Below, piece after piece: positions 5,361 to 24,823 of a stretch of DNA of 27,552 nt. The notes beneath the pieces were generated by a model, which saw only the letters and a program-made list of their open reading frames with translations, did no database searches and was not told where the DNA came from. Each line of letters opens with the position of its first letter. Within the stretch, counting starts at the first letter, position 1. This DNA is from a virus: the IMG/VR virus record IMGVR_UViG_3300042891_000672, positions 1 to 27,552 of that record; one strand, 5' to 3'. The position numbers and the translations under genes are program-made.

Positions 5361-5825
5361 ATGATAAAACTAATTAACTTAATCAAAGAAATTCTTACTG
5401 AAGAATTTGAACAGAAGAAAAAAGTAACAGGTAGAAGATTTATTCCTCAAGTAACAATATTACCTGCTGAGACTAAAGATCAATTTAAAGAACATTTTAA
5501 GTTAGTTAAAAGTGCCGATGGTGAGTATAGATTGTATATTAGTACATTCCTTAAAGATGCTTTAGAGTCATTAAGTAGAGGTCGTACTAGTCGTGATACT
5601 CAAAAAAGATTATCACCATTAGCTAAAATGGTATCTGAAAGAATGCCTCAAGAAATTAGAGGATTACTTAAAAAATATTCTGAAAAATTAAACTCAGGAT
5701 TACAAATGTATTCAATCAATACTAAAATTAAAGAAGTAACCCCAGAAGGTGACATAGTATTTTACAACCCAGGTAATAAAGCAATGGCTAGTAAGGCATT
5801 TGATCCAACTATTACAGAAGAATAA
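5361..5825 (+). CDS. Putative capsid-targeted internal protein (154 aa, unknown function)
   Basis: The first 14 residues, MIKLINLIKEILTE followed by E, form a short amphipathic leader ending in a hydrophobic-x-Glu site (LTE). This is the pattern shared by many proteins of this window and resembles the T4 capsid-targeting sequence cut by the prohead protease. The remainder is charged and mostly helical (ETKDQFKEHFKLVKSADGEY, SPLAKMVSERMPQEIRGLLK) and ends DPTITEE. No known fold was recognised. The start at 5361 is supported by the leader itself and by the A-rich context. It follows the structural operon and precedes a GIY-YIG-like nuclease by 5 nt. Virion localisation is inference. Confidence 0.65.
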   Translation: MIKLINLIKEILTEEFEQKKKVTGRRFIPQVTILPAETKDQFKEHFKLVKSADGEYRLYISTFLKDALESLSRGRTSRDTQKRLSPLAKMVSERMPQEIRGLLKKYSEKLNSGLQMYSINTKIKEVTPEGDIVFYNPGNKAMASKAFDPTITEE

Positions 5826-5830
5826 ATATT

Positions 5831-6292
5831 ATGTACTTACTAGAATCAGTTATGTCTGTTGAGGATTTAATCAACAATGAAAGTTTTGACCCATCACAAT
5901 ACGAAGGATATATTTATATTACTACATTTTTAAATTTAAATCGTAGTTATATAGGTAAAAAGAATTTCTTCCACACTACTAATGTTAAATTAGGTAAAAA
6001 AGAACTAGCCGCTTTACCTGTTACTCGTGGTAAAAAACCAAGCAAAAAACAAGTAAGAAAGGAAAGTGACTGGAAAACATATTATGGCTCATCCGCTGAG
6101 GTTAAAGAATTATTAAAAACTGAACCTAAAGACAGTATAGTTAGAGGTGTGTTACGTTTATGTAAATCAAAAAAATCTTTAACTTATTATGAAAACAAAT
6201 ATTTATTTCAATATGGGGTATTAGAAGACCCAAAGAGATGGATTAACGATAATATTCAGGGGCGTTTTTTCTCATCTGATACCTTAGAATAA
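5831..6292 (+). CDS. GIY-YIG-like endonuclease (SegE-like phage family)
   Basis: The N-terminal half carries the two signature strands of GIY-YIG nucleases: EGYIYITTFLN (GIY position) and SYIGKKNF (YIG position). They are followed by ESDWKTYYGSS and the later YYENKYLFQYGVL and NDNIQGRFF blocks. This arrangement is the one I recall from small GIY-YIG/SegE-like proteins of T4-like cyanophages. The Glu in YYENKYLF is the likely metal ligand. Length (153 aa) fits a stand-alone nuclease domain without a DNA-recognition extension. Whether it acts as a homing endonuclease, in host DNA degradation or in recombination cannot be told. It lies 5 nt after a tagged gene and 36 nt before the next. It does not itself carry a clear leader peptide. 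Confidence 0.65.
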   Translation: MYLLESVMSVEDLINNESFDPSQYEGYIYITTFLNLNRSYIGKKNFFHTTNVKLGKKELAALPVTRGKKPSKKQVRKESDWKTYYGSSAEVKELLKTEPKDSIVRGVLRLCKSKKSLTYYENKYLFQYGVLEDPKRWINDNIQGRFFSSDTLE

Positions 6293-6300
6293 AAGACATA

Positions 6301-6308
6301 TATTTATA
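6301..6308 (+). promoter_or_regulatory. TATTTATA element (candidate late promoter)
   Basis: TATTTATA 20 nt before the ATG at 6329, the same spacing as before the gene at 2371. Function inferred from recurrence. Confidence 0.4.
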
Positions 6309-6328
6309 ACAAAAATAATTATAATAAC

Positions 6329-6877
6329 ATGACAAAAATACTAAACGAGCAATTCAATAGAATGCAAAAATTAGCAGGTTTAATTACTGAAAATAAAATT
6401 AGTGAAGAAACCCTAAACGAAAACAGATACAGAGCATCAGATTTCCCTGAAGTAACTGGATTTGAAGAAGATAATAATGAAGCAATCATTACTTTCTCTG
6501 ACGGTACTAAAGATGTAGTTGGACCAAGAAATTTTGCTAATAAAGAAGCAGGATATACTAAGTTCCTTGAGTTATTAAATACTATGGGTACCGATTCTAA
6601 AGCTAAACAAGCGGTAAGTGATTTCTTAGAAATTAAAAAATTCAATGTACTTAGTACAAGTGATATTAATAAACTTTTAGCTGACAATGGTGTAGATGAA
6701 GAATATTTCTCAGCTATGGGTGGTAAAGAAATTGAAGGAGGAACAGAGACATGGATAGATATAATAGAAGATATTATAGGTAAACCATATGACTCCAACA
6801 ACATCAGTAAAAAGGATGATATGAAAATACAAACATTCATGAATCATCTAAGCCGTTTAGGTATTGAAGTAGTATAA
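6329..6877 (+). CDS. Putative capsid-targeted internal protein with RMQKLAGLITE leader (182 aa)
   Basis: The N-terminus contains FNRMQKLAGLITE, almost the same as KRMQQLAGLLTE at the start of the protein at 12473, although the two proteins are otherwise unrelated. This points to an exchangeable leader with a predicted cut after ITE (residue 21). The mature part has a small beta segment (EAIITFSDGTKDVVGPRNFA) that could bind DNA or protein, then helices (KAKQAVSDFLEIKKF, SDINKLLADNGVDEEYF). No catalytic motif was recognised. The gene ends 11 nt before a strong terminator, so it is the last gene of its transcription unit. The start is fixed by the leader and the AATAAC-ATG context. Confidence 0.65.
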   Translation: MTKILNEQFNRMQKLAGLITENKISEETLNENRYRASDFPEVTGFEEDNNEAIITFSDGTKDVVGPRNFANKEAGYTKFLELLNTMGTDSKAKQAVSDFLEIKKFNVLSTSDINKLLADNGVDEEYFSAMGGKEIEGGTETWIDIIEDIIGKPYDSNNISKKDDMKIQTFMNHLSRLGIEVV

Positions 6878-6888
6878 AAGATATAAGT

Positions 6889-6913
6889 AAGCTTGGTTCG
6901 CCAAGCTTTTTTT
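6889..6913 (+). terminator. Rho-independent terminator
   Basis: A perfect 8-bp stem AAGCTTGG / CCAAGCTT closed by a UUCG tetraloop (6889-6908) and followed by a run of five T. This is the clearest terminator of the window and ends the unit of the gene at 6329. Confidence 0.9.
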
Positions 6914-6922
6914 ATTATAATA
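6913..6922 (+). promoter_or_regulatory. Palindromic TATTATAATA element
   Basis: A 10-bp perfect palindrome containing TATAAT (6916-6921), 7 nt before the primase ATG and directly after the terminator. Longer versions (ATATTATAATAT) precede the genes at 20687 and 23247. Candidate early/middle promoter -10 element or operator; no matching -35 box seen. Confidence 0.35.
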
Positions 6923-6928
6923 TAATTA

Positions 6929-7849
6929 ATGGTCAACCAACTGCTTGTCACATTAATTAATTCAACATTAGGAACAGGTAAACCTACAGCAAGAAGTAAT
7001 TATGCTTATACTTGTCCTAAATGTAATCATCATAAACCAAAACTAGAAATATGTTTAGATGAGAATAGTCCTGACTTCCAAAAATTTGGTTGTTGGGTGT
7101 GTAAATTCAAAGGTAAGAAATTAATAAATTTATTCAAATCAATATCTGCTCCATCAGATAAAATACTTGAATTAAAGTCATTAGTTAAAATCAATACACC
7201 TATTGAACAACAAATAGTTGATGAAAAAATTAAATTACCTGATGAGTTCCAACATATATTAAATAATCCATCATTTTCAGCTAAACGTGCCTTAACTTAT
7301 CTAAAAAGTAGAGGATTAACTGAAGATGATATTATAAAATATGGTATAGGATATTGTGAAACTGGAAAATACACTGATATGGTTATTATCCCTTCATACA
7401 ATGACTCAGGTATTTTAAATTATTTTGTTGGTAGAAGTTATATACCTGAATCAAATAGAAAACTAAATCCAAGTGTTTCACGTAATATAATACCTTTTGA
7501 AATATTTATAAATTGGAATTCACCAATCATACTATGTGAAGGTATGTTTGATGCAATTTCAATTAAACGTAATGCTATACCACTATTAGGTAAAAACATA
7601 CAATCAAAGTTAATGTCTAAAATAGTTTCATCTACTGTTAAAAAGGTATATATAGCTTTAGATAAAGACGCTATTAAACAAGCACTTGATTTTTGTGAAC
7701 AACTTATTAATGAAGGTAAAACAGTACATTTAATAGAACTAGAAGACAAAGATCCAAATGAAATGGGATTTAAATCTTTTATTAAGCTACTATACAATTC
7801 AACACCTCTAACATACTCAGGTTTATTAGAGAAAAAACTACAGTTATGA
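6929..7849 (+). CDS. DNA primase, DnaG type with zinc ribbon and TOPRIM (T4 gp61-like role)
   Basis: An N-terminal zinc-binding motif is visible: CPKC (residues 29-32), His 34/35 and CWVC (55-58). This is followed by a primase RNA-polymerase-type core with YLKSRGLTEDDIIKYGIGYC, IIPSYNDSGILNYFVGRSY, then the TOPRIM motifs ILCEGMFDAIS (Glu about 204) and YIALDKDA (Asp about 245 and 247). It synthesises RNA primers at the replication fork and would act with a phage helicase, which is not in this window. Length (306 aa) is close to phage primases. The start follows a terminator and a TATAAT-containing palindrome, so this gene probably opens an early or middle transcript. It overlaps the following nuclease gene by 4 nt (ATGA), implying translational coupling. 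Confidence 0.9.
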   Translation: MVNQLLVTLINSTLGTGKPTARSNYAYTCPKCNHHKPKLEICLDENSPDFQKFGCWVCKFKGKKLINLFKSISAPSDKILELKSLVKINTPIEQQIVDEKIKLPDEFQHILNNPSFSAKRALTYLKSRGLTEDDIIKYGIGYCETGKYTDMVIIPSYNDSGILNYFVGRSYIPESNRKLNPSVSRNIIPFEIFINWNSPIILCEGMFDAISIKRNAIPLLGKNIQSKLMSKIVSSTVKKVYIALDKDAIKQALDFCEQLINEGKTVHLIELEDKDPNEMGFKSFIKLLYNSTPLTYSGLLEKKLQL

Positions 7850-8613: not shown

Positions 8614-8630
8614 CTCCGCTTATTTACTAA

Positions 8631-8638
8631 TATTTATA
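8631..8638 (+). promoter_or_regulatory. TATTTATA element upstream of a hairpin
   Basis: TATTTATA 42 nt before the ATG at 8681. Unlike the other copies, a terminator-like hairpin lies between it and the gene. Candidate promoter with a structured leader, or a chance match. Confidence 0.3.
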
Positions 8639-8666
8639 AGAGACTTGGACTCCCCAGGTCTCTTTA
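8638..8666 (+). terminator. Terminator hairpin (possible attenuator)
   Basis: An 11-bp stem AAGAGACTTGG / CCAGGTCTCTT with one G-T pair and a 5-nt loop, followed by a T-rich tail (TATTATAT). It ends the primase-nuclease unit. Because TATTTATA lies just before it, it could also sit in the leader of the gene at 8681. Confidence 0.75.
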
Positions 8667-8680
8667 TTATATTTACATTG

Positions 8681-9505
8681 ATGATAAAACTTGTAGAACT
8701 GTTAAAAGAGATATCCCAAAATAAAATGGTGATCATGGCTGGTGGAGCAGGCGCTGGGAAATCATATCTTCTTAATAATATTAAATCAAAAGTACCTGGT
8801 GTTAAAATTCTTAATCCTGACACTTATGTTGAGGATAAAGACAGTCCAATGTATAATAACTTAACTAAAGCATCATCTCAAATTGATGATGTAGATGTAC
8901 CTAATGCTATAGCTAGTGGTGAATCATTTATTTGGGACACAACAGCATCTAATGCTGCTAAAATGTTAGGTGGAGAATATCGCCGTAAACAAGTAAAAGG
9001 TATATTAAACACAGAAGGTTATGATGAAATGATGGTAATGGTTTATACACACCCTATAGTATCATTTTTACGTAATTTTAAACGTGAACGTAAAGTACCT
9101 ACAGTAGGTGTATTATCAACATGGAACAATGTTTATGGTAATATAGAGGCATATAAAAATAAATTAGGTGATAATTTTATATTATACCAAGCACCTGATA
9201 AAGAATATCAAAAACAAATTGATGAATTTAATGAGGCTGCTAAAAATAATAAATTAAAAGAATATTTTGAAAATCTATTATCATCAGGTGAGTTCAGATC
9301 AACATTTAGAAAAGATAAACCTGAACCTCAAACACCAGAAGAAATAGAAAAAGCTGAGAAACAGAAAGCACAGTCTAAAGCATTGGTTGATGCTCAAATA
9401 GATAAACTTGAAAAAGAGTTTATGAATATTGAAAACAAAGTTAAAGACTCAGTCATAACAGATGAAAATGAAGTAATAAATAAGGTAGTTAATTTTATAA
9501 AATGA
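8681..9505 (+). CDS. Zeta-toxin-like P-loop kinase with capsid-targeting-like leader (274 aa)
   Basis: I place the start at ATG 8681 rather than an in-frame upstream ATG at 8645 that lies inside the terminator hairpin. From 8681 the protein begins MIKLVELLKE, the same leader class as the genes at 5361, 18251 and 18948. A Walker A motif GGAGAGKS (residues 21-28) follows directly, then LNPDTYVEDKD, SFIWDTTASN and an RERKVPTVGVLSTWNNVY block. These resemble the Zeta-toxin/polynucleotide-kinase-like group of P-loop kinases, which phosphorylate sugar nucleotides or nucleic-acid ends. The C-terminal 70 residues are a charged helical tail. It overlaps the next gene by 4 nt. Function (toxin, nucleotide kinase or RNA-end kinase) is open; the leader suggests virion packaging. 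Confidence 0.7.
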   Translation: MIKLVELLKEISQNKMVIMAGGAGAGKSYLLNNIKSKVPGVKILNPDTYVEDKDSPMYNNLTKASSQIDDVDVPNAIASGESFIWDTTASNAAKMLGGEYRRKQVKGILNTEGYDEMMVMVYTHPIVSFLRNFKRERKVPTVGVLSTWNNVYGNIEAYKNKLGDNFILYQAPDKEYQKQIDEFNEAAKNNKLKEYFENLLSSGEFRSTFRKDKPEPQTPEEIEKAEKQKAQSKALVDAQIDKLEKEFMNIENKVKDSVITDENEVINKVVNFIK

Positions 9506-11070
9506 GTTTAGGCAAATATATAGCAGAAATAATAATTGAACCTACCCCTAAAAAAGTAGCTTTATACCCAGGAGCATTCAAACCACCTCATAGAGGCCAT
9601 TTTGAATTAGTACAACGTTTATCTAAAGTAGCAGATGAAGTACTAATAGTTATTTCACCTATTGCTCGTGATGGAATAACAGCTCAACAATCTCTATCAG
9701 CATGGAAATTGTATTTACCTTTATTACCTAAAGCTAAAGTTATTATATCAAATGTAGCTTCACCTGTATCATATGTTTATGATTATATTAAATCAAACCC
9801 ACAACAAGACATAGTGGTAGCATTTGGAAAAGGTGAAGAAGAACGTTATAAAGCGCTTTTAAACAAAGAAAAATACTCTAATGTTAAAGTATATGATGCT
9901 GGTAATATAGATGATTTAAGCGCGTCTAATTTACGTAATGCTATTAATTCAAACAACCCAGCTGAAATAGCTAAATTCTTACCTCAAGATATTGAAGTAG
10001 CAGATTATGTGAATGCATTAGGTATAAACTTAAGAACCGAACCTCCATTTAATTCAATAGCTGAAGAAGGTTCATTGGTTAAAAAAGCAAAAACACCTAA
10101 AGGACAATTTCTTAAAAACTGGGGTATTGATATGTATGCTCTTGAATTAGCTAGAGGATTAGAAGAAAACACAACTCCAGACTTAACATTTGATCAAGCA
10201 TTAACTAGTTTAACTCAATACTTTGTAAAACAAGGTTTTCCTGTTAATCCATTACCTAAAGTTATTATTAATGATAAAGACCAAGAAAATGCTTCTAAAC
10301 TATTAGGTAAAACTGCTTATTATGATCCTAATAAAAAAGAAATAACATTATTTACATTAGGTAGACATCCAAAAGATATATTACGTTCTTTTGCTCATGA
10401 AATGATTCATCATATTCAAAACATGAAAGGTCAAATTCATGATGTAGATACTACTGACACAACATCAAATGATTATTTAAGTCATCTTGAACAAGAAGCA
10501 TATACTCAAGGTAATATGACTTTTAGAAACTGGGAAGATAAAATAAAAAACAATAAGGTTATGAATGAAGAAAAAGAAAAATCAAAATACACAATATTCT
10601 GTGATATGGATGGTGTGTTAGTTGATTTTGATAAGGGTTATGAAGATTTAACTGGTTTACATACTAAACATGCTGATGTACAAGACAATAAAGTTTTTTG
10701 GAATAAATTTAAACAAAGTTTAGGCGATAAAAACATGACTGAATATGATTATTGGGCTAAATTAGATTGGATGCCTGATGGTAAAGAATTATGGAAGTAT
10801 ATAAAACAATATAACCCATACATTCTTACAGCTCCTTCATTAAACCCAGAATCTAAAGAAGGTAAAAAAGCCTGGGTGACTCGTTTAGACAATATGAAAA
10901 ATATATATTTTAGACCTGCTCAATATAAGTCTGATTTTTCAAATGAAAATCGTATACTTATTGATGATAGGGCTGATACTATTGAAAGATGGAACGCTAA
11001 AGGTGGTATTGGTATTTTACATACTTCAGCTGCTGATACAATTAAACAACTTAAAAAATTAGGACTATAA
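9502..11070 (+). CDS. Three-domain fusion: nucleotidyltransferase, HExxH metallopeptidase-like, HAD phosphatase
   Basis: Residues 1-13 (MSLGKYIAEIIIE) look like a leader with a hydrophobic-x-Glu end. Residues 18-175 are a cytidylyltransferase/NMN-adenylyltransferase-like domain: YPGAFKPPHRGH (HxGH, His 30 and 33) and the C-terminal SASNLRNAI motif. Residues about 195-345 contain FAHEMIHHIQN (HExxH, His 299 and 303) and LEQEAYTQGN, whose Glu is a plausible third zinc ligand. Residues 363-522 form a HAD domain: IFCDMDGVLVDFD (nucleophile Asp 368), the LTAPS motif and ILIDDRAD. The HAD part resembles 5'(3')-deoxyribonucleotidases. Possible protease sites (SIAE-E, VMNE-E) lie exactly between the domains. 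Substrates are unknown; nucleotide, NAD or RNA-end metabolism are the reasonable options. Confidence 0.8.
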   Translation: MSLGKYIAEIIIEPTPKKVALYPGAFKPPHRGHFELVQRLSKVADEVLIVISPIARDGITAQQSLSAWKLYLPLLPKAKVIISNVASPVSYVYDYIKSNPQQDIVVAFGKGEEERYKALLNKEKYSNVKVYDAGNIDDLSASNLRNAINSNNPAEIAKFLPQDIEVADYVNALGINLRTEPPFNSIAEEGSLVKKAKTPKGQFLKNWGIDMYALELARGLEENTTPDLTFDQALTSLTQYFVKQGFPVNPLPKVIINDKDQENASKLLGKTAYYDPNKKEITLFTLGRHPKDILRSFAHEMIHHIQNMKGQIHDVDTTDTTSNDYLSHLEQEAYTQGNMTFRNWEDKIKNNKVMNEEKEKSKYTIFCDMDGVLVDFDKGYEDLTGLHTKHADVQDNKVFWNKFKQSLGDKNMTEYDYWAKLDWMPDGKELWKYIKQYNPYILTAPSLNPESKEGKKAWVTRLDNMKNIYFRPAQYKSDFSNENRILIDDRADTIERWNAKGGIGILHTSAADTIKQLKKLGL

Positions 11071-11071
11071 T

Positions 11072-12472: not shown

Positions 12473-13120
12473 ATGGAACAATTTAAAAGAATGCAACAAT
12501 TAGCTGGTTTACTTACTGAAGGTATGGCTGCGTACGAATATGAAAAAGGTAAAGAAGCTGGTGAAAAAGCTGAAAAGAAAAAAATGAAAAAATCTGAATT
12601 AAAAAAACAGATTAAAGAAATGATCTTAGCTGAGATAGATATTGATTTATCTAACACTGATAGTTTTTATGACCCAGTTTATGAAGCTAAGAAAAAGAAA
12701 AAAGACGAAGAAGAAGTAGAAATATCAGCCACTGAAGAAATCCCAGCTGGTGAAGAAACACCTATTACTGAACCTACTTCACCATCATATGATGTTCAAA
12801 AAGAATTAATGGACGCATTAAACGCGGCTAAGTCAATCGGTGATGAAAAATTAGTTCGCCAAATTGGTAATGCGTTAACATACTTCACTCGTACACAAGT
12901 AGCTAAAGAAGAAAATCCACCTGCAATGAAAGAAGCATTAAGTATGGATGCTATGGAACGTATGGAAGGATTAGCTAATATACAAGATTTATATATCTTT
13001 AAAAAGAAACTCAACGCATTAACCTTAGATTGGACGCAAGACGGATTTGAGAAAGAAGATATTATTGAATATATATCTGAACTTATTAATCAGAGTACTA
13101 CACTTAATTATATAAAATAA
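12473..13120 (+). CDS. Putative capsid-targeted protein with two leader-like segments (215 aa)
   Basis: Begins with FKRMQQLAGLLTE (predicted cut after Glu 16), near-identical to the leader of the gene at 6329. A second leader-like stretch, MKKSELKKQIKEMILAE (residues 38-54), matches the other leader class seen at 17141 and 17536. So this protein carries both types in tandem, separated by a very Lys/Glu-rich linker (EKGKEAGEKAEKKK). An acidic Thr/Pro-rich linker (about residues 78-105) follows. The C-terminal half (YDVQKELMDALNAAKSIGDE, LVRQIGNALTYFTR) is a helical domain I do not recognise. It could be a scaffold or core component as well as cargo. It is followed 5 nt later by the H1-like gene. 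Confidence 0.65.
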   Translation: MEQFKRMQQLAGLLTEGMAAYEYEKGKEAGEKAEKKKMKKSELKKQIKEMILAEIDIDLSNTDSFYDPVYEAKKKKKDEEEVEISATEEIPAGEETPITEPTSPSYDVQKELMDALNAAKSIGDEKLVRQIGNALTYFTRTQVAKEENPPAMKEALSMDAMERMEGLANIQDLYIFKKKLNALTLDWTQDGFEKEDIIEYISELINQSTTLNYIK

Positions 13121-13125: not shown

Positions 13126-13296
13126 ATGAAACAAGAGTTATTCGAAAAAATGCAACAAACATGGGATATGTTGGTTGCTGAGCACAACGGTAAAAGTAAA
13201 GCTGCTCAAGGTCGCGCTAGAAAATTAGCAAGTGAATTAAAAAAATTAGCAACTGAATATAAAAAAGCATCAGTAGCTGAAGCAAAAGCTCAATAA
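13126..13296 (+). CDS. Histone H1-like (Hc1-type) small basic protein, 56 aa
   Basis: A short ORF with ATG at 13126 and TAA at 13294-13296. The product begins MKQELFEKMQQTWDMLVAE and continues NGKSKAAQGRARKLASELKK, then LATEYKKASVAEAK. This closely follows the pattern of the roughly 58-aa histone H1-like proteins common in Bacteroidetes (NGNKAAGxRARK...KEFRKxSVEASK, from memory), which bind and compact DNA. It lies 5 nt after one tagged gene and 1 nt before another. The first 19 residues end in LVAE, so it may also use the leader/cleavage pattern. As a virion protein it could condense packaged DNA or protect it on entry. The host-type sequence argues for acquisition from a Bacteroidetes. Confidence 0.75.
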   Translation: MKQELFEKMQQTWDMLVAEHNGKSKAAQGRARKLASELKKLATEYKKASVAEAKAQ

Positions 13297-13297: not shown

Positions 13298-14317
13298 ATG
13301 AAACACTCAGACTTAAAAGAAATTGTTAAGAACATTCTGGAAAACAAAATGAACATGCCAGAGGAAAATCCAGTAGATGTAGTAACAATGGATGTTCCAT
13401 TGTTTATTCGTTTATTAGAATATGCTCGTGAAGATGCTAAAACAGATATGGATTTACATGACGTAGCTGAAAAAGCAGTATCTTTAAGTACTGAGGGTAA
13501 AGTATTATCAATGGAAGACTATGATAGTATAGCTCCTACTGAAGAACAAATGAATGAAGACCTAGACATAGGTCATCAAGATGATGAACCTGATATGTTA
13601 AAAGGTGATGTATTCCGCATTGGTCAATATGCTAACGATTTATATAAAATGTTAGATACATTTGATAAAATGCCTGGAGAAGTAGATTTCCCAGATTGGT
13701 GGCAAAATAAAATTCATTTAGCCGCTGATTACATGGACAAAGCTAAACATTACTTAGAACATGAAATGGTACAACCTGCTGTTGATGCATCATTAAGTGA
13801 AGCAACATCTGATGTTCGTTCAATAGCTAGAGAAATAGCTGATGAACTAGAAGCTATGCTTTCATATGATTCTAATGATAAAGGAAAATTAGTTGACACT
13901 GCTATTGTTAAGTATGATTTAACTCCAGACCAACAACAAGATTTAGATTATGAATTATTCATGATTTTAAATAAAGGTGATATGGAAAGATTTGATGATG
14001 GTAGTGAAATGACTGAAAAGAAATTAACAAAAGCTGAACTAAAGAAACGTGAAGAAATAGTTAAGTCAATGAAAGATACTTTTAAAGGACCTAAAGCAGC
14101 TATGTATGCTATAGCTACTGATAAAGCTAAAAAAGTAGCTGAAGTGTTAGCTAAAAAATTAAAAGAAGAACGCTTTAAAAAAGGAACAGACATTGGTAAA
14201 CCTGGTAAAGGATTTGCTAAAATAGCTAAATCTGCTGCTAAACAATATGGCTCAAAAGAAGCTGGCGAACGTGTAGCAGGTGCAATTCTTAAAAAAGTAT
14301 TAGCTAAGAAAAAATAA
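13298..14317 (+). CDS. Putative capsid-targeted protein with basic C-terminal DNA-binding-like region (339 aa)
   Basis: The leader is MKHSDLKEIVKNILE (cut predicted after Glu 15). Residues about 88-158 (LDIGHQDDEPDMLKGDVFRI, GQYANDLYKML, FPDWWQNKIHLAADYMDKAK) form a helical domain I remember as recurring in marine T4-like phages. A second helical domain (SIAREIADELEAMLSYDS) follows a possible cut site SLSE-A (residues 166-170). The C-terminal 100 residues are highly basic, with KGPKAAMYAIATDKAKKVAE and GKGFAKIAKSAAKQYGSKEA, then GERVAGAILKKVLAKKK, suited to DNA binding. It may be a core/scaffold component or an internal DNA-associated protein. Overlaps the next gene by one base. Confidence 0.65.
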   Translation: MKHSDLKEIVKNILENKMNMPEENPVDVVTMDVPLFIRLLEYAREDAKTDMDLHDVAEKAVSLSTEGKVLSMEDYDSIAPTEEQMNEDLDIGHQDDEPDMLKGDVFRIGQYANDLYKMLDTFDKMPGEVDFPDWWQNKIHLAADYMDKAKHYLEHEMVQPAVDASLSEATSDVRSIAREIADELEAMLSYDSNDKGKLVDTAIVKYDLTPDQQQDLDYELFMILNKGDMERFDDGSEMTEKKLTKAELKKREEIVKSMKDTFKGPKAAMYAIATDKAKKVAEVLAKKLKEERFKKGTDIGKPGKGFAKIAKSAAKQYGSKEAGERVAGAILKKVLAKKK

Positions 14318-14792: not shown

Positions 14793-16007
14793 ATGGACGT
14801 ATTAGATCTATTTTTTAAAAAATACTCATATAAATTTTCAAAAGGATATCCTGACATGAATAATGAACAGGATATCTTGTTACTGGAAAATATATTAAAT
14901 GAATTAGGTATAGACTTAAATGAAGGATCAGTTATGAACAACTCAGCGAAAGCTATTAAAAAAATCATTGATTCTTCAGAGGGAAAACAATATAATTTTA
15001 AATTACAAACTGCAAATAATAGGTTAGGTAATTTAGATAAAATATCTAAAGAAGAATTTTTAAATATACTTAACTCAGTATTCCCAAATGTTCCTATTAA
15101 AGTTCATGCTCCAGGTGAAGGACCAAACGTTAAACCTAAAGGTAGTTCTAAATTCAATATGTATGAATTCACTACTGAAGACGGTAATGTTCAAATTATA
15201 CTATCTGGTGGAGCAAATGAAGGAGAAAAATATGAACAATCATTTACTAGTGATTTAAAAGCGTCAGCTGGTAAATCTTTAGAAGATATTGAAAATGAAA
15301 ATGTTAAAAAATTATTCAAATCATTAAATATTAATCCTAAAAATTTAACACCAGAAGATATTGACTTTGCAGGTACAGCTGACACAAAACGATCTCTTAG
15401 TTTTACTAATTTAGAGAATATTGGTAAAAAAATAGCTGATGTTATTATAAATTATAAAGGTAAAGAATATTATATATCATTAAAAAATATATCTGGACAT
15501 ACTTTTTATAATGGAGGTAATGTTCCATTTATAGTATTTGATAAAAATAGTAAAGTAATCTTTGATAAATCTAAATATAATAATAATGAAATAATCAAAA
15601 CATTGTTTGAAATATTTAACATAGATATTAATAAAGTAACCCAAGGATTAAATGAATATATAGCTGGAGAAGGTGATATTCCTAATAGTTTTGAACCAGT
15701 TAATAATGTTAATATTAACGCTATTAAAAATATGATAACATCAGGTTTTGGATATGGTTACTATTATGTTAAAGAAAAAAAAGATGGTTTAAGTATAATA
15801 CCTCTTTTAACACAAGAAGACGCATATAAAGCTATAGGAGATATATCATCTGCTTCTATAAAATACCCTAATTCTGAAACAAAATCTCTAACTATTAAAG
15901 TACCTTTAGATAGTGAAATATTTGGAAAAGTAGATTGTTTGATAGAAATAAGAAATACAACAGGTAATGTTTTACCATTGTCTCTTAAAATAAAAACTAA
16001 CAAATAA
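14793..16007 (+). CDS. Probable PD-(D/E)XK-like nuclease with leader-like N-terminus (404 aa)
   Basis: The central region has the layout of a PD-(D/E)XK-type nuclease: NEGEKYEQSFTSDLKAS (Glu about 145/148), DIDFAGTADTKRSLSF, then IADVIINYKGKEYYISLKN, where Asp 216 and S-x-Lys 231 fit the D-x(n)-xLK core, followed by GHTFYNGG. I recall this block from hypothetical restriction-endonuclease-like proteins of marine phages; the assignment is by motif only. Two starts are possible: ATG 14793, or ATG 14856 (residue 22). From the second, the protein starts MNNEQDILLLENILNEL and ends its leader in DLNE-G, like its tagged neighbours. A 9-bp inverted repeat surrounds the second ATG. It would cleave DNA in the host cell if injected. 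Confidence 0.6.
   Translation: MDVLDLFFKKYSYKFSKGYPDMNNEQDILLLENILNELGIDLNEGSVMNNSAKAIKKIIDSSEGKQYNFKLQTANNRLGNLDKISKEEFLNILNSVFPNVPIKVHAPGEGPNVKPKGSSKFNMYEFTTEDGNVQIILSGGANEGEKYEQSFTSDLKASAGKSLEDIENENVKKLFKSLNINPKNLTPEDIDFAGTADTKRSLSFTNLENIGKKIADVIINYKGKEYYISLKNISGHTFYNGGNVPFIVFDKNSKVIFDKSKYNNNEIIKTLFEIFNIDINKVTQGLNEYIAGEGDIPNSFEPVNNVNINAIKNMITSGFGYGYYYVKEKKDGLSIIPLLTQEDAYKAIGDISSASIKYPNSETKSLTIKVPLDSEIFGKVDCLIEIRNTTGNVLPLSLKIKTNK
14845..14876. repeat. Inverted repeat around an internal start codon
   Basis: GATATCCTG (14845-14853) and CAGGATATC (14868-14876) form a perfect 9-bp stem; its 14-nt loop contains the ATG at 14856, an alternative start of the nuclease-like gene. Confidence 0.55.
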
Positions 16008-16018: not shown

Positions 16019-17128
16019 ATGAATAACATCAAAAAAATAATTAAAGAAATTATACAACAACGTAATCTTAAAAAAGATTGTGGTTGTGGATGTAATGGTA
16101 AATGTGGAAAAAATGAGGCACCAATGTTAAATGAAAATTTAACACACAAGTCTTTAATTAGTGAACACATGCAATATCATATTGATAATAAATTGGCTCT
16201 TACCGAAAATACATTTCGTTATGGATCTACATCATTCCTTAATTTATGGAAAGAAGCCAGAAAATTATACTCACGCAACTTACTTGAAGTATCAGGTTTA
16301 GATAAAGATATAATAGTTGAAACTAATTTAGGTGAATACGGTATATATGAAGGTCAAGAAGTACCATTAGATTTACCTATGATTGAAGAAGGTCAAATGT
16401 TAGATAACTATGAAGTTGATTTTTTTCATACTAAAGCTAATGTATATGCTAATATAGAAATACCTAGTGAAAATCCAACATTTGAAGATGATCTTCAAAT
16501 AAAAGGAATAGGTAAAACTGAAGAAGAAGCATTTGAAGATTTAAAACAAAATTACAATAATTACAAGAAAACAGGAATAAATGAAGCTGAGTATGATTTC
16601 AATATCAATAAGGTATGGGATTTTATAGAATCACGACCATTTAATAATCCTAATTATATGCCCAAATTTAGCACAGCTAAAGAAATATGGGATGAATGGG
16701 GAGATAAAGAAAAACAATTATATAGTGATTTCCAATGGGAAGATAAATATAATGGTCAATTACACCCTAAAGAAAAAGCTAATCTTCAACGTAGAAAAAA
16801 TTATGATACTTTAGCAGGAATAAACGAAGCTGAATACCAAGGTAAAGATGTTCAACTTAATAAACCTAAACGTGGTGGATCTAAAAAATTCTATGTTTAT
16901 GTAATGGATCCTAAAACTAAACGTGTTAAAAAAGTATCATTTGGAGCTGCAGGTGGAGGTCAAAACTTAGCAGTTAAAATTAGAGATCCTAAAGCACGTA
17001 GAGCATTCGCTTCACGTCAAAACTGTGATAAGAAAAAAGACAGAACAAAACCCGGTTACTGGAGTTGTAACATAGGCAGATATTGGAAATCATTAGGTGG
17101 CGGTTCAAATTTTAGCGGATATTGGTAA
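16019..17128 (+). CDS. Putative internal virion polyprotein with repeated protease sites (369 aa)
   Basis: Begins with the helical leader MNNIKKIIKEIIQQ, then a cysteine-rich knot CGCGCNGKCG (residues 21-30) that could bind metal. Along the chain several segments end in hydrophobic-x-Glu: MLNE-N (36-39), LISE-H (46-49), ALTE-N (60-63), and two copies of INE-AEY (187-192 and 268-273). Those two match the T4 prohead-protease rule (I/L)xE-A well. Two aromatic/acidic regions follow (WDFIESRPFNNPNYMPKF, EIWDEWGDKEKQLYSDFQW). The C-terminal 90 residues are basic (GGSKKFYVYVMDPKTKRVKK, KIRDPKARRAFASRQNC, RTKPGYWSCNIGRYW), a domain I recall from marine phage and other large-virus proteins. Probably processed into several internal peptides; this is inference. 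Confidence 0.65.
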   Translation: MNNIKKIIKEIIQQRNLKKDCGCGCNGKCGKNEAPMLNENLTHKSLISEHMQYHIDNKLALTENTFRYGSTSFLNLWKEARKLYSRNLLEVSGLDKDIIVETNLGEYGIYEGQEVPLDLPMIEEGQMLDNYEVDFFHTKANVYANIEIPSENPTFEDDLQIKGIGKTEEEAFEDLKQNYNNYKKTGINEAEYDFNINKVWDFIESRPFNNPNYMPKFSTAKEIWDEWGDKEKQLYSDFQWEDKYNGQLHPKEKANLQRRKNYDTLAGINEAEYQGKDVQLNKPKRGGSKKFYVYVMDPKTKRVKKVSFGAAGGGQNLAVKIRDPKARRAFASRQNCDKKKDRTKPGYWSCNIGRYWKSLGGGSNFSGYW

Positions 17129-17140: not shown

Positions 17141-17503
17141 ATGAAAAAATCAGAATTAAAAAATATTATTAGAGAAGAAATATCTAAAGTATTAAATGAA
17201 TCTTATTATGCATATTTAGGTGGTAACACTAATTACACAGATGAAGAAATGCGTCGAAATATAATTGATAAAGAGTTTGGTAAAGATAATTACAATGCAT
17301 ATATTATGTTTGATGAAACTGCTCCAAAAGGACAGTATGATGCGATGAAAGCTAAATATGCAAAGGACACATCTAACTGGGAAGTACTTTGGAGGTCACA
17401 ATCGTATCAATCTGAAGCTGTTCTTTCACCTGATAAAAAAGTCATCAAAGCTAAGGTATTTGGTAAAGGAGGAATTATAGGAGCACTTTATATAAAAAAA
17501 TAA
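17141..17503 (+). CDS. Putative capsid-targeted small protein (120 aa)
   Basis: The first 20 residues, MKKSELKNIIREEISKVLNE followed by Ser, are a long form of the leader, with a cut predicted after LNE. The rest is a small alpha/beta protein (DEEMRRNIIDKEFGKDNYNA, NWEVLWRSQSYQSEAVLSPD, VIKAKVFGKGGIIGALYIKK) that I do not recognise. The start of the leader reappears as an internal segment in the protein at 12473 (MKKSELKKQ) and, modified, at 17536 (MKLSELKQ). It stands 12 nt after the polyprotein gene. Confidence 0.65.
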   Translation: MKKSELKNIIREEISKVLNESYYAYLGGNTNYTDEEMRRNIIDKEFGKDNYNAYIMFDETAPKGQYDAMKAKYAKDTSNWEVLWRSQSYQSEAVLSPDKKVIKAKVFGKGGIIGALYIKK

Positions 17504-17535: not shown

Positions 17536-17886
17536 ATGAAACTATCAGAATTAAAACAACATATTAAAGAAGAATATTCATCAGCTTCAAAACTGTATGA
17601 AATCGATGGTATCATAGTTATTGATACTGACGTAGCATTCCATAAACAAATTATGTCAGATATTCGTGCTATTAAAGGTGTAACAATTGTTAAAGATTAT
17701 ATTTATGAACCAGTAGGTGCTGCTGAAAATAGAGGATATGCTGAGTTAAGTATTAAAATAGATCCATCACCATTTGAAAATAGTGATCCTAAAGTTATTA
17801 CTAATACCGTAATTAGAGATATTAAAGCAACTAAAGGTGTACGCGCGTTTAAATTAAAACAAGGACCTAGTCTAACCACAGTATAA
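17536..17886 (+). CDS. Putative capsid-targeted small protein with ferredoxin-like pattern (116 aa)
   Basis: The leader is MKLSELKQHIKEE followed by Tyr; its last segment lacks a strong hydrophobic residue two before Glu, so the cut site is less certain. The remaining 100 residues show a beta-alpha-beta pattern twice (GIIVIDTDVAFHKQIMSDI, GVTIVKDYIYEP, YAELSIKIDPSP, KVITNTVIRDIKATKGVRAF), suggesting a small ferredoxin-like fold. No catalytic residues were recognised. Overlaps the next start by one base (TAATG), implying coupled translation with the basic cysteine-rich protein. Confidence 0.6.
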   Translation: MKLSELKQHIKEEYSSASKLYEIDGIIVIDTDVAFHKQIMSDIRAIKGVTIVKDYIYEPVGAAENRGYAELSIKIDPSPFENSDPKVITNTVIRDIKATKGVRAFKLKQGPSLTTV

Positions 17887-18254
17887 TGGATTTACGTAAA
17901 TTAGTTAAAGAAGTATTAAACGAACAGAAAGCAAAACGTGACAGATGTTTACGTATTGCTGACCGTAAGTTTGATAAACCATCTGCTTATAAATCAGGTG
18001 CTGTAGTTAGATGCCGTCAAGGTAAAATATGGAAAGGCCTAAAAGAAGACGAATCACTTCATAAATGGTTTAAACGTCAAGGTACACCAGGTAAAGAAGG
18101 TGGATGGGTAGATTGTAATACTTGTAGAGACGGTAAATGTAAAGCATGTGGTAGAAAAAAAGGTGAAAAACGTGCTAAATACCCTTCATGCCGTCCAACA
18201 CCAGCACAATGTAAACAACCAGGTAAAGGTAAAAAATGGGGGAAAACAAAATGA
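17886..18254 (+). CDS. Tagged basic cysteine-rich protein (DUF5872-like), 122 aa
   Basis: The leader is MDLRKLVKEVLNE (predicted cut after Glu 13). The rest is strongly basic with seven cysteines. The C-terminal part (LHKWFKRQGTPGKEGGWVDC, NTCRDGKCKACGRKKGEKRA, KYPSCRPTPAQCKQPGKGKK) closely follows a domain I remember as DUF5872, known from marine phages and giant DNA viruses (KWVD...CGRKKGE...YPxCRPT). The N-terminal half (CLRIADRKFDKPSAYKSGAV, VRCRQGKIWKGL) is another short basic block. The cysteines may bind zinc; DNA binding is likely from charge. Overlaps the previous and following genes by 1 and 4 bases. Confidence 0.7.
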   Translation: MDLRKLVKEVLNEQKAKRDRCLRIADRKFDKPSAYKSGAVVRCRQGKIWKGLKEDESLHKWFKRQGTPGKEGGWVDCNTCRDGKCKACGRKKGEKRAKYPSCRPTPAQCKQPGKGKKWGKTK

Positions 18255-18955
18255 TTAAGTTAATAGATTTATTAATTGAAATAGGTGTAGATCTATCTAA
18301 TTATAAAGGACAGATATTAAAAGGAGATGTTGTCCGAGCACCTAAAAATTTTCCATTAAGTGGAGAAAAACTTGATAAATCATTATCCCTTAAAGTGACT
18401 AAGATATCTAGAGAAGGTGTTAATAGATATAAATTATCTTTAGAAGATACTAAAACAGGTAAAAAATATACAATTAGAAACTATCAAATGGATGGTGAGT
18501 ATAAAGGTAAAAAATTACCTAAATGGGGTTTGGTAAGAAAATCTAAAGAAAATACTAAAGAAGCATCTAATCCACAAGCAGGAACAGCCATACCTTATGG
18601 ATCAGGATTTGCTCCTGTAAAAGAAACTAAAAGAATACCTCGTAAATCAGGTCAACCTGCTAAATCAAGTAAACATTCTGATCTTTATACAGATGAAGAT
18701 CCTAAAGGAACTATTACTGGTTTAGGTTTTAAAGATGCTGCTACAGCTAAACAAGGTATATCTAAAATAAATAAAGCTAAAACAACTCATGCTCATAAAG
18801 TACAAGCCACTTTAGTGATGAAACAAAGAGCAAAAGTAGCTATAGAAAGAACTAAAGATCCTGAAAAGAAAAAGAAATTAAAATCTGCTTATCAGATTTG
18901 GTCTAAAAAATTAGAACAATTAAAGCGTAAAACTAAACGATTAAAAAATGATTAA
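18251..18955 (+). CDS. Tagged basic protein with C-terminal HSDLYTDEDPKGT domain (234 aa)
   Basis: I choose ATG 18251 (ATGA overlap with the previous stop) over the in-frame ATG at 18236. From 18251 the protein opens with MIKLIDLLIE, the leader class of 5361, 8681 and 18948. Residues about 15-100 are a beta-rich segment (ILKGDVVRAPKNFPLSGEKL, YKLSLEDTKTGKKYTI) that resembles small nucleic-acid-binding barrels, but this is a guess. The C-terminal 95 residues (SKHSDLYTDEDPKGTITGLG, FKDAATAKQGISKINKAKTT, HAHKVQATLVMKQRAK) match a domain I recall as widespread in marine phages and some bacteria, of unknown function. The end is very basic (KRKTKRLKND). It overlaps the superoxide dismutase gene by 8 nt. 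Confidence 0.65.
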   Translation: MIKLIDLLIEIGVDLSNYKGQILKGDVVRAPKNFPLSGEKLDKSLSLKVTKISREGVNRYKLSLEDTKTGKKYTIRNYQMDGEYKGKKLPKWGLVRKSKENTKEASNPQAGTAIPYGSGFAPVKETKRIPRKSGQPAKSSKHSDLYTDEDPKGTITGLGFKDAATAKQGISKINKAKTTHAHKVQATLVMKQRAKVAIERTKDPEKKKKLKSAYQIWSKKLEQLKRKTKRLKND

Positions 18956-19649
18956 ATTAACAGATATATTAAAAGAAGTATCTAAAGAAAAAATTCAACG
19001 TTTAGAAAAAACAAACAATGAGCAAAAACAAGATATAAAATTTAAAGTACCAAAATTAAATTATTCATATACTTCTCTTCAACCTTATATAGATAAGGAA
19101 ACTATGGAAGAACATTTTGATAAACATTTTAAAGGATACACAGATAAACTTAATGCTGAATTAGATGAAAAATCTATCAGAGTAAATGCTGAAGATCAAA
19201 CCCAAGCTATTCAAATAATATTAGGTAAATATCCTAAAAATGATATTATTAGAAATAATGGTGGTGGTTTTTATAATCATGTCTTGTATTTTGAAAACAT
19301 TACACCCGACTATAAGGCACCTTCAACTAAATTTAGAAAAATGTTAGAGGAAAACTTTAAGTCATTTTCTGAATTTAAAGAACAATTTAAAGAAGCTGGT
19401 TTGAAACAATTTGGTTCGGGTTGGGTATTTTTAATTAAAAAAGGAAATAAATTAGTTATAGAATCTTATCCTAATCAAGATAATCCATATTTAGATAAAG
19501 ACTTTAAAGGTAAAATTTTAATTGCTATGGATGTTTGGGAACATGCTTATTATTTAAAACACAAATCCCAAAGAGGAAATTATATTAATGATTTTTTTAG
19601 AGTAGTAGATTATAAAGTAGCAGAAGAAAGATTAGAATTATTAGATTAA
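18948..19649 (+). CDS. Mn-type superoxide dismutase with capsid-targeting-like leader
   Basis: Residues 1-10 (MIKLTDILKE) are the shared leader, then a charged linker to about residue 33. The dismutase follows: YSYTSLQPYI, METMEEH-type helix with His 56, second-sphere Tyr 64, NNGGGFYNHVLYF with His 111, FGSGWVFLIKK, PNQDNPYL, and MDVWEHAYYL with Asp 195 and His 199. All four metal ligands are present. The Gly-Gly before the second His and the Gln in PNQD are the manganese-type pattern. The enzyme converts superoxide to hydrogen peroxide and oxygen. A normal dismutase has no such 30-residue N-terminal extension. The gene overlaps a tagged gene by 8 nt. If packaged, the enzyme could protect the virion DNA or counter a host oxidative response. 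Confidence 0.88.
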   Translation: MIKLTDILKEVSKEKIQRLEKTNNEQKQDIKFKVPKLNYSYTSLQPYIDKETMEEHFDKHFKGYTDKLNAELDEKSIRVNAEDQTQAIQIILGKYPKNDIIRNNGGGFYNHVLYFENITPDYKAPSTKFRKMLEENFKSFSEFKEQFKEAGLKQFGSGWVFLIKKGNKLVIESYPNQDNPYLDKDFKGKILIAMDVWEHAYYLKHKSQRGNYINDFFRVVDYKVAEERLELLD

Positions 19650-20555: not shown

Positions 20556-20561
20556 ATTAGA

Positions 20562-20652: not shown

Positions 20653-20676
20653 GCTTTAACACAAAATAATATTATT

Positions 20677-22488: not shown

Positions 22489-22492
22489 GGTA

Positions 22493-22984: not shown

Positions 22985-23195
22985 GTATATTAAGCTCTAT
23001 CTAAATGATGTTGAAGATTACGGTGAAGATGATGAGTTAATTATAGCTGAAACAACATTATCTAAATTACAAAATAACTTAATTACTGAATCTGAGTTTG
23101 ATGTACAGCAAGTGATAATGGAAGCTATTAATAAATCACAAACTAAGTCGAGAATAATTTTAAATGATTTTCTTACATATATAGAGAATATATAA
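22956..23195 (+). CDS. Small acidic helical protein (79 aa)
   Basis: The gene starts inside the end of the previous one in another frame. The product is MKISKEQLNEYIKLYLNDVE followed by DYGEDDELIIAETTLSKLQN, with ITESEFDVQQVIMEAI later. It is helical and acidic, with no known domain. The opening is somewhat similar to the shared leaders (MKxSxxxLxE) but lacks a convincing cut site. It could be a small regulator. The overlap of 29 nt lowers certainty, though the stop lies 51 nt before the next gene and codon use looks normal. Confidence 0.5.
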   Translation: MKISKEQLNEYIKLYLNDVEDYGEDDELIIAETTLSKLQNNLITESEFDVQQVIMEAINKSQTKSRIILNDFLTYIENI

Positions 23196-23228
23196 AGTTT
23201 GGCCTCATTATTAGTTTTTGTTAATTTT

Positions 23229-23240
23229 ATATTATAATAT
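23229..23240 (+). promoter_or_regulatory. Palindromic ATATTATAATAT element
   Basis: Identical 12-mer to that at 20677-20688, here 6 nt before the ATG at 23247. Contains TATAAT at 23233-23238. Confidence 0.4.
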
Positions 23241-23246
23241 ATTTTT

Positions 23247-23489
23247 ATGACAAAAACTGAATTTCCTCAATCAAAGATGTACACCAAACCTGATGGTACT
23301 GTAATGTATTTATGGGACAAGAAGTTACATAACTGGGATGGCCCAGCATTAATACCTGAAGGTGATATTAAAAAACGTGAATATTATTTATATGGTATCC
23401 AATATTCTGAAAAAGAATGGAAAGCACGTAAAAAACAATTAGTAGGATTACCATTTTACAAAATGCCAGGAACAAAAGCAAGAACATAA
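23247..23489 (+). CDS. Small DGPA-type phage protein (80 aa)
   Basis: The product reads KPDGTVMYLWDKKLHNWDGP and EGDIKKREYYLYGIQYSEKE. It belongs by pattern to the phage/bacterial proteins with WxxxGxxHRxDGPAxI-type repeats (here KLHNWDGPALI and YYLYGIQYSEKEW), one copy plus its continuation. These are small beta folds of unknown function. The gene begins after a palindromic element and runs into the NadR-like kinase gene with a 1-nt gap, so the two are likely one unit. Confidence 0.6.
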   Translation: MTKTEFPQSKMYTKPDGTVMYLWDKKLHNWDGPALIPEGDIKKREYYLYGIQYSEKEWKARKKQLVGLPFYKMPGTKART

Positions 23490-23490
23490 T

Positions 23491-24015
23491 ATGAAAATAG
23501 GTTTATGTGGAACAATGAGTGTAGGCAAGACTACACTTGTTAATGCTCTTAAAGAATTAGAGCAATTTAAAGATTATAAAACTGCTACTGAACGTAGTAA
23601 ATATTTAAGTGAGTTAGGTATACCATTAAATACTGACTCTACATTACCAGGACAGTTTATATTCATGGCTGAACGAGCTAGTGAATTATTGCAGGAAAAT
23701 ATTATTACTGATAGAACAGTATATGATGTATGTGCATTTACATTTAGTGCTAAATCAATTGAATTTTCTCAAAAAGAAACATTTGTTAAGGCAGCTATAC
23801 CATTAATTAAAATGTATGACATTATATTTTATGTGTCACATGAAGGTGTTGAAATTGAAGATAATGGTGTTAGAACAACTGATCCTGACTATCGTATGAA
23901 AATAGATATGGTTATACAAGCTATGTTAAATGAATACCCTCCTAATAGATTAGTAAAAATATCAGGAACTACTGAGGAACGTATAGCAAAAATCATTGAA
24001 ACACTAAACTCATAA
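23491..24015 (+). CDS. NadR-like P-loop kinase (AAA_28 type), 174 aa
   Basis: The N-terminus KIGLCGTMSVGKTTLVNAL is a Walker A motif (GTMSVGKT). It is followed by TATERSKYLSELGIPL, GQFIFMAERASELL, IITDRTVYDVCAFTF and MYDIIFYVSHEGVEIEDNGV. This order matches the AAA_28/NadR C-terminal kinase group, where NadR phosphorylates nicotinamide riboside; other members are uncharacterised nucleoside or deoxynucleoside kinases. Asp in TDRTVYD is the likely catalytic or metal-binding residue. Substrate is not decidable. It carries no leader, so it probably works in the infected cell as part of nucleotide or NAD supply. It ends exactly where a TATTTATA element begins. Confidence 0.75.
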   Translation: MKIGLCGTMSVGKTTLVNALKELEQFKDYKTATERSKYLSELGIPLNTDSTLPGQFIFMAERASELLQENIITDRTVYDVCAFTFSAKSIEFSQKETFVKAAIPLIKMYDIIFYVSHEGVEIEDNGVRTTDPDYRMKIDMVIQAMLNEYPPNRLVKISGTTEERIAKIIETLNS

Positions 24016-24023
24016 TATTTATA
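24016..24023 (+). promoter_or_regulatory. TATTTATA element (candidate late promoter)
   Basis: TATTTATA directly after the kinase stop and 14 nt before the ATG at 24038, the start of a tagged gene leading to the terminase. Confidence 0.4.
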
Positions 24024-24037
24024 CATAAACAACATTG

Positions 24038-24823
24038 ATGAAAGATTATTACAATGAGTTAAAAAACTATTTAACCAAAATAGGATTTGATGGACCTCTA
24101 GATAAACTAGAAAAAATTAAAAATAATCCAATCGAAGTAATTAAAATGTATAACATGTATATGAAACAAAATAAACTAAGAGAAATTATTCGTGAAGAAT
24201 TAGACGCGGTATTAGATGAAATGGCCCGTGCTAAAGTAATTTACACTGTTAAAGATAAACCATCACTTGAAAAAGTAGTTGATGCTGCTAAAGGTAACAC
24301 TAAAATGGCGTTACAATATCTTTTAGATAAAGGTGAAATGGCTATAGCTGATTTAGCTAAAGAATTAAAGAAAGATCCAGCTGCATTTAACAACCCAGGC
24401 TTCAGAAAATTAATGGCTGATTTGTCTGATAGAAATGTAGTGGCTACATCCGCCGGAGCATCAAGTACTCCCGCCCCTAAAGTAACTCCAACTCCTAAAA
24501 TGGCTAAAGTTACAGCTCCATCAGGTGACGAAGAAGATTTTGAAAAAGAAGCACCATCAGAAAAAGATGTTGCAGCTGGTGAAAAAGAATTTGGTGATAT
24601 TGGAGCTGAAAAATTAGCAGGTGAAGAAAAAGTTAAATTTGAAAAATTAAACACTGCTATTAAAAATAAAGTAGCTAAACTTGAAAAAATGTCTGCTAAG
24701 GACAGAGCTAAATCACCAGACTTAGCTGTAGTAAAACAAATTATTAACAAACCTGAGGTTAAAAAATTATTTAAAGCCAAAGGTATTGATGTAATGGACT
24801 TAGTAAGTTCAGTTATTTCTTAA
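24038..24823 (+). CDS. Putative internal virion protein with internal leader-like segment (261 aa)
   Basis: I use ATG 24038 (a TTG precedes it in frame). The first 41 residues (DYYNELKNYLTKIGFDGPLD, then KLEKIKNNPIEVIKMYNMY) form one helical piece. It is followed by MKQNKLREIIREELDAVLDE, a clear leader of the 17141 type with Met 42 at ATG 24161 and a cut predicted after Glu 61. So either the true start is 24161 or the leader is preceded by a pro-segment. After it come a winged-helix-like region (MAIADLAKELKKDPAAFNNP), a Pro/Thr/Ala linker (ASSTPAPKVTPTPKM), an acidic stretch and a helical C-terminus. It is two genes before the terminase, but I see no specific small-terminase motif. Confidence 0.6.
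   Translation: MKDYYNELKNYLTKIGFDGPLDKLEKIKNNPIEVIKMYNMYMKQNKLREIIREELDAVLDEMARAKVIYTVKDKPSLEKVVDAAKGNTKMALQYLLDKGEMAIADLAKELKKDPAAFNNPGFRKLMADLSDRNVVATSAGASSTPAPKVTPTPKMAKVTAPSGDEEDFEKEAPSEKDVAAGEKEFGDIGAEKLAGEEKVKFEKLNTAIKNKVAKLEKMSAKDRAKSPDLAVVKQIINKPEVKKLFKAKGIDVMDLVSSVIS

Follow-up and report, generated by a model that had tools for sequence, protein, structure and literature searches.

In this study we have analysed a family of short N-terminal leaders encoded on a 27,552-base fragment of a marine T4-like myovirus (IMG/VR record IMGVR_UViG_3300042891_000672; the whole stretch is hereafter called the window). Fourteen window proteins carry such leaders, which are 10–37 residues long, can be grouped by sequence into at least four classes, end in a [LIVMF]xE-type site (some have V or M where T4 has L or I) and precede bodies that are unrelated to one another; about 14 of them are packed into 19 kb adjoining the head genes. 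These leaders are very probably T4-type capsid-targeting sequences that are processed by the phage's own S77 prohead protease, releasing the cargo inside the head. Shared leaders on unrelated bodies, a protease, scaffold and capsid in the same phage and the same type of site in head proteins are established at the level of sequence. For the window phage we strongly infer packaging and cleavage, and we infer injection into the bacterium, processing of polyproteins and a function in the host.

That the leaders are common to proteins with unrelated bodies had been proposed in a preliminary description of this DNA, and is borne out by position weight matrices (PWMs) trained only on material from outside the window, by matching of N-termini and by clustering of bodies. 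A PWM trained, after removal of near-identical copies, on superoxide dismutase (SOD) leaders from phages other than this one recognises four window genes at ≥10 bits, against 0.0 expected from internal positions, and a PWM built from core-protein leaders recognises five genes at ≥8 bits, against 0.5 expected, which is weaker support for class 2. When window N-termini were matched to 1,416 genes of relatives and pairs with homologous bodies were set aside, the genes starting at 17141, 6329 and 12473 had 33, 17 and 14 matches, those at 17536 and 24161 had 10 each, and those at 5361, 8681 and 18948 had 7, 6 and 5; leaderless window genes gave zero or at most one. Both approaches place the leaders at N-termini and rarely elsewhere. 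In related phages, over which a profile search had been suggested as a check, the SOD-leader PWM recognises 40 N-termini that do not belong to SODs and gives eight internal matches, three of which are capsid-propeptide sites. When 20 leader proteins from relatives were compared with Pfam, most matched no family; the exceptions were a zeta-toxin kinase, a weak HAD-type match and a sub-threshold hint of an ADP-ribosyltransferase. The leader helices, described from the start as amphipathic, exceed internal segments in amphipathicity (p = 7e-6). Likeness could also stem from common descent or composition, i.e. from N-termini of paralogues or from Lys/Leu/Glu-rich starts in an AT-rich genome, and K, I, L and E are indeed frequent at the N-termini of the window phage. 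However, the bodies encoded by 113 leader genes from relatives form 58 unrelated clusters, leaderless window genes are nearly devoid of N-terminal matches beyond their own family, and shuffled and internal sequences, used as controls, give much lower values. N-terminus matching and body clustering largely refute this explanation, to which we give next to no credence.

The reading as capsid-targeting sequences calls for a T4-type prohead protease in the genome. A PF03420 search of the window alone gives no match because the contig stops within the portal (gp20) gene (26989..27552, + strand). With an exact 29-base probe we retrieved two contigs that extend beyond the window end and overlap the window by 4,981 and 11,974 bases at 100% identity. 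They encode, in order, the portal, core-region proteins of 284 and 187 amino acids, a 422-amino-acid protein, the S77 protease, the scaffold and a gp23-type capsid protein, the last three genes lying ~4–7 kb past the window end. The protease, at ~31,620–32,234 when extrapolated to window coordinates, matches PF03420 with an E value of 6e-31. A protease alignment with T4 gp21 has 29 invariant columns, and PDB entry 5jbl is matched at 3e-14. The expected protease is thus present, as is, beside it, the scaffold gene that had been anticipated near the leaders. The closest isolate, Flavobacterium phage immuto (59.6% identity between terminases), agrees with the window phage in gene order: leader genes, terminase, portal, core proteins, protease, scaffold, capsid. 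Among records with a leader-bearing SOD that contain head genes, 7/7 have both an S77 protease and a gp23-type capsid, and the long records with a leaderless SOD, L129 and L130, have neither.

The leaders themselves resemble parts of head proteins (in the following, a slash marks a protease-type site). In 26 relatives the C-terminal tail of the scaffold has the form NDAFARMRELAGL, and in almost every one an [IV]xE site stands directly ahead of it; the scaffold of the window phage, read from an identical contig, has the C-terminal end KKPIVE/SNDMIARFQKLAGII. Across the six reading frames of the window, a PWM trained on scaffold C-termini alone finds two strong matches, and each is a leader: NEQFNRMQKLAGLITE (36 bits at 6344) and MEQFKRMQQLAGLLTE (26 bits at 12473). 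The class-3 leader (FxRMQxLAG) copies the scaffold tail. At ≥14 bits the same PWM gives, in relatives, 17 N-terminal matches in genes outside the training scaffolds, three internal matches with sites on both sides (e.g. LNE/SF...ITE/AQ) and five C-terminal matches, namely two non-training scaffolds (L033 and immuto), two tagged proteins that are not scaffolds and one unidentified protein (L133). The two tagged proteins (L021:4005-4724 and L070:707-1378) end in the scaffold tail (LNESFTRMQKIAGIIK), and the tag may function from either end of a protein. A weaker second scaffold-tail motif (DAMERMEGLANI) lies at 12944-12982, within the C-terminal half of the protein that starts at 12473, and a similar stretch is found in L092. 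The herpesvirus scaffold attaches to the shell through its C-terminal tail, which a related protease removes, a likeness that we regard only as a lead.

Classes 1 and 2 resemble the N-termini of capsid, scaffold and core proteins. The core protein of the identical contigs reads MKLSELKKLVKETLQE/MS, and their gp23-type capsid protein has LLE/G and ILE/NQ sites, as in T4 gp23; the capsid N-terminus of relatives (SLLE/SAN, GLLE/G, ILE/NQAK, LVVE/A) aligns with PLLE/G, IFE/NQEK and FLTE/A of T4 gp23. In good agreement with the earlier view that the leaders end in a hydrophobic-x-Glu site of the T4 (L/I)xE type, such sites are also found in the capsid propeptide, the protease N-terminus and the scaffold of relatives. 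A cut at this site is a separate matter from docking: the leaders might attach proteins to the head and stay uncut, with (L/I)xE an incidental product of helix composition and the proteins remaining attached to the core or the shell. So short a motif is common, and an uncleavable T4 targeting sequence with Asp at position 10 is still packaged (PMC9026906). However, the site trails the docking helix at a similar position in every class, and sites of the same type occupy homologous positions of T4 gp23, the protease N-terminus and the place directly ahead of the scaffold tail. Furthermore, in fusion proteins a [LIVMF]xE site lies 4–13 residues ahead of the fused domain in 10/10 contexts, against 1.9 expected with shuffled linkers, a comparison whose p-value is optimistic because the contexts are related to one another and had been inspected before the distance range was chosen. 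Docking without cleavage is accordingly improbable in our judgement.

Published virion proteomes of T4-like cyanophages provide a second line of evidence. Virions of S-CREM2 contain a SAM (S-adenosylmethionine) hydrolase, a Cas9-like protein, an APH-like kinase, a cytidylyltransferase and others (PMC10665884, Table 3), and the N-termini of these proteins read MKDFDSFLEE, ..FASFMAE, VKRFDAFLTE and MKNFSSFLTE; the words targeting, leader, signal peptide, cleav and N-terminal are all absent from the main text of that paper (PMC10665884). The NMNATs of six T4-like cyanophages carry the leaders MKNFSSFLTE, MKSFLQFLKE, MKKFSAFLNE, MKKFSAFLKE and MKGFSNFLIE, and the NMNAT of a non-T4 jumbo phage has none. 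In phage Bellamy (L176, MF351863) the annotated start of the NMNAT, gene 170, matches the post-leader part of the S-SCSM1 NMNAT, and the true start probably lies upstream of the annotation. The cyanophage virion proteomes show that leader proteins are present, without showing the cut end. They also bear on the idea that the leaders have no role in the head and instead direct proteins to the tail or baseplate, a replication compartment or the membrane, or label late proteins that are expressed together. An amphipathic helix at the N-terminus can in general attach to a membrane or to many different partners, and primase- and exonuclease-like genes share the cluster. These neighbouring primase- and exonuclease-like proteins, however, lack a leader, the class-3 leader matches the scaffold tail, classes 1 and 2 are like N-termini of capsid, scaffold and core proteins, and the NMNATs that carry leaders in S-CREM2 and S-SCSM1 are found in virions, so that we consider a destination outside the head very unlikely.

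In S-CREM2, a pattern derived from the T4 internal proteins (IPs) occurs in 6/26 detected non-structural proteins vs 1/157 undetected ones (p = 3e-5), an enrichment that favours targeting to the capsid. Several points weigh against targeting to the capsid followed by cleavage. The S-CREM2 pattern was selected post hoc, with the detected N-termini already seen. For S-SCSM1 the leader rule was fixed before its application; it names two carriers, of which the NMNAT ORF91 (MKSFLQFLKE/A) is in the virion and ORF30 was undetected, so the preset test was right for the NMNAT and overall not significant (p = 0.14). These proteomes come from cyanophages and not from the window phage or its close relatives. 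The NMNAT of Pelagibacter phage HTVC008M lacks a leader, as do certain NMNATs in SOD-carrying relatives. Co-occurrence of leader and protease may merely mirror T4-like ancestry. The [LIVMF]xE motif is of low complexity and is present in 42% of random 30-residue polyprotein stretches; the class-2 PWM is weak; and the evidence for the leaders at 9502, 13298, 16019 and 17886 is moderate. Finally, when the clade PWM was run over 125 T4 genes, gp24 ranked first, IPI third and IPIII and IPII 21st and 22nd, with Alt only 53rd. On balance, the interpretation of the leaders as T4-like capsid-targeting sequences, offered originally from the letters of the window alone, is supported by protease and scaffold in the same phage, the shared sites and the cyanophage NMNATs in virions.

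All leaders of the window lie on the + strand. Class 1, scored with the SOD-leader PWM, comprises MIKLVELLKE/ (8681..8710; 15.4 bits) on a zeta-toxin-like P-loop kinase (gene 8681-9505; PF06414 2e-7), MIKLIDLLIE/ (18251..18280; 16.9 bits) on a 234-amino-acid basic protein and MIKLTDILKE/ (18948..18977; 20.7 bits) on the superoxide dismutase. The leader MIKLINLIKEILTE/ (5361..5402), on a 154-amino-acid protein, scores 16.1 bits with this PWM, and its seven N-terminal matches have unrelated bodies. Class 2 comprises MKHSDLKEIVKNILE/ on a 339-amino-acid protein (13298..13342; core-protein PWM 9.8 bits), MKKSELKNIIREEISKVLNE/ (17141..17200; 16.5 bits, every matched body unrelated), MKLSELKQHIKE/ (17536..17571; matches with unrelated bodies and zero internal), MDLRKLVKEVLNE/ on a DUF5872-like Cys-rich protein (17886..17924; core-protein PWM and domain search) and MKQNKLREIIREELDAVLDE/ (24161..24220; matched bodies unrelated). 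The 24161 start sits within a longer frame opening at 24035, and the alignment with the L002 homologue begins exactly at the first residue of the 24161 leader. Class-3 leaders, scored with the scaffold C-terminus PWM, are MTKILNE/QFNRMQKLAGLITE/ on a 182-amino-acid protein (6329..6391; 36.2 bits), whose helix has a protease-type site on either side, and the 12473..12520 leader on a 215-amino-acid protein (26.0 bits). The class-4 leader, ...FSKGYPDMNNEQDILLLENILNE/ (14793..14903; 37 amino acids, pattern ...KGYPDMNN...ILNE), is a conserved N-terminal module found in proteins of other phages; several of these proteins have different bodies. The leader MSLGKYIAEIIIE/ (9502..9540), on a cytidylyltransferase/NMNAT-like polyprotein (gene 9502-11070; phrog_395, phrog_3462), does not match the SOD-leader PWM, and homologues of this polyprotein bear different leaders. 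MNNIKKIIKE/ (16019..16048), on a 369-amino-acid protein, scores 8.5 bits with the core-protein PWM; the body is homologous to an immuto gene whose N-terminus differs.

The preliminary description had listed fourteen leaders, and twelve stand unchanged (5361, 6329, 8681, 9502, 12473, 13298, 17141, 17536, 17886, 18251, 18948 and 24161). The one placed at an internal start, 14856, is real; since the 21 residues upstream are conserved in immuto and other phages, that start was rejected and the gene begins at 14793. The leader at 13126 was dropped as unsupported, its N-terminus being conserved along with the body and resembling no other gene, and that at 16019 was added. The 13126-13296 gene encodes a 56-amino-acid Lys-rich protein that is conserved in immuto beside groEL (about L134:42266), and the tests give it no leader.

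The best-characterised cargo is the Fe/Mn superoxide dismutase, whose core (19032..19646, + strand) matches PF02777 at 1e-30 and PF00081 at 1e-19. Both SOD domains and all four metal ligands (H56, H111, D195, H199) are present, and the ligand columns are invariant. PDB SODs align with the 18948 protein from residue 29 onward only, and a structure model shows a separate N-terminal helix (4–25) ahead of the SOD fold. SOD leaders in relatives include MKLMSILTE, MKIKDILFE and MINLIQLLTE, and a few SODs lack one (L125, L127, L129, L130). The 9502 polyprotein combines an NMNAT-like domain, a metallopeptidase-like stretch (HEMIHH) and a HAD 5'-deoxyribonucleotidase domain. Its nucleotidyltransferase domain matches PF01467 exactly at the cut-off and phrog_395 at 3e-6 and contains GxFxPxHxGH, with GAFKPPH.GH invariant; the product is predicted to be a probable NAD-making enzyme. 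Between the metallopeptidase-like part and the HAD domain lies the site KVMNE/ (10552..10569, + strand), in which N355 and E356 are invariant in homologues. An AlphaFold model of this polyprotein had a mean predicted local distance difference test score (pLDDT) of 51 and was not used. Immuto encodes the HAD enzyme separately, under a leader of its own, MKKVMGNLADLLLE, and in other relatives the SOD is embedded in the NMNAT polyprotein. Polyproteins of 1000–1600 amino acids in L090, L091, L093, L094 and L095 combine NMNAT, SOD, kinase and nucleotidase domains in varied orders.

The motif TATTTATA is a candidate late-promoter motif for this phage clade. Twelve + strand copies occur in the window, and eight of them, at 2343, 5350, 6301, 8631, 12446, 20548, 24016 and 26978, fall in the short intergenic gaps that make up 2.3% of it, upstream of structural and leader genes alike. 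In immuto the motif stands ahead of 17/87 structural-region genes vs 7/146 elsewhere (p = 0.0005), and two of the latter seven are leader genes (25061 and 60009). The canonical T4 late promoter TATAAATA is not enriched in the window (15 vs 11 expected), and its reverse complement on the + strand concentrates in intergenic DNA. The placement of TATTTATA suggests that leader genes are expressed late together with head genes, as packaging requires.

We propose that the amphipathic leader helix would dock a newly made protein into the prohead core, with the (L/I/V)xE site coming next; once the shell closes, the S77 (gp21-type) protease would cut after Glu and leave the mature protein free within the head, from which it would exit alongside the DNA at infection. 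Docking would use several dialects: a copy of the scaffold C-terminal tail, an N-terminus like that of the core protein, whose gene lies beside the protease gene, and N-termini like those of capsid and scaffold. The cargo would be modular, consisting of single enzymes (superoxide dismutase, zeta-type kinase) or of polyproteins (NMNAT-like, peptidase-like, nucleotidase) with protease-type sites between domains. A bolder version, to which we give even odds, is that the scaffold docking tail has been made a portable tag (N-terminal, internal or C-terminal), that enzyme polyproteins are diced by the capsid protease in the prohead and that the particles deliver a metabolic and antioxidant kit. About 14 tagged proteins suggest a large enzyme kit per particle for delivery into the bacterium, and a packaged superoxide dismutase could give early protection from oxidative stress. 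Hypothetical and auxiliary metabolic genes beside head genes of aquatic T4-like phages thereby become testable predictions of packaged proteins and cut sites, leader tags offer a reason for the presence of NMNAT in cyanophage virions, and the leaders may serve as new short tags with which phage heads can be loaded with proteins.

In T4 the cleavage motif is L/I-x-E, ten N-terminal residues of IPIII are enough for packaging, and IPs and gp22 co-purify (PMC9026906), which fits docking onto the scaffold core; T-even relatives possess at least ten internal proteins (PMC12373910). Like T4 (IPI, IPII, IPIII, Alt, gp24; gp21), the window phage has a short N-terminal leader on unrelated proteins (10–20 residues in T4), an (L/I)xE end, an S77 protease and a gp23-type capsid. 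It differs from T4 in having several leader dialects, one of them a scaffold-tail copy, with ~14 leaders in 19 kb, and in a cargo of enzymes (superoxide dismutase, NMNAT) and of polyproteins with inter-domain sites. The ejection proteins of phiKZ and SPN3US, processed by an S80 protease, are comparable to the proteome deduced for the window phage in that many proteins are packaged and their propeptides are removed by a cut behind Glu (PMC5694885, PMC10052503); however, the phiKZ and SPN3US propeptides are mostly >100 residues long, with the motif AxE (SPN3US) or SxE-like. S-CREM2 and S-SCSM1 share with the window phage an NMNAT with a T4-type leader, and S-CREM2 also a virion kinase and SAM hydrolase with such N-termini, but their leader dialect is FxxFLxE and superoxide dismutase was not seen in their virion. 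Polyvalent proteins (Iyer et al. 2017, PMC5512222; PMC9503650) are similarly multidomain and have been suggested to accompany phage DNA into the cell, whereas the window proteins bear a capsid leader and inter-domain protease-type sites. A literature search, with subscription papers and preprints outside its reach, found no description of this leader family. The kind of system is already known from the T4 internal proteins; what sets the present variant apart is its extent, its cargo of enzymes and polyproteins and the copy of the scaffold tail.

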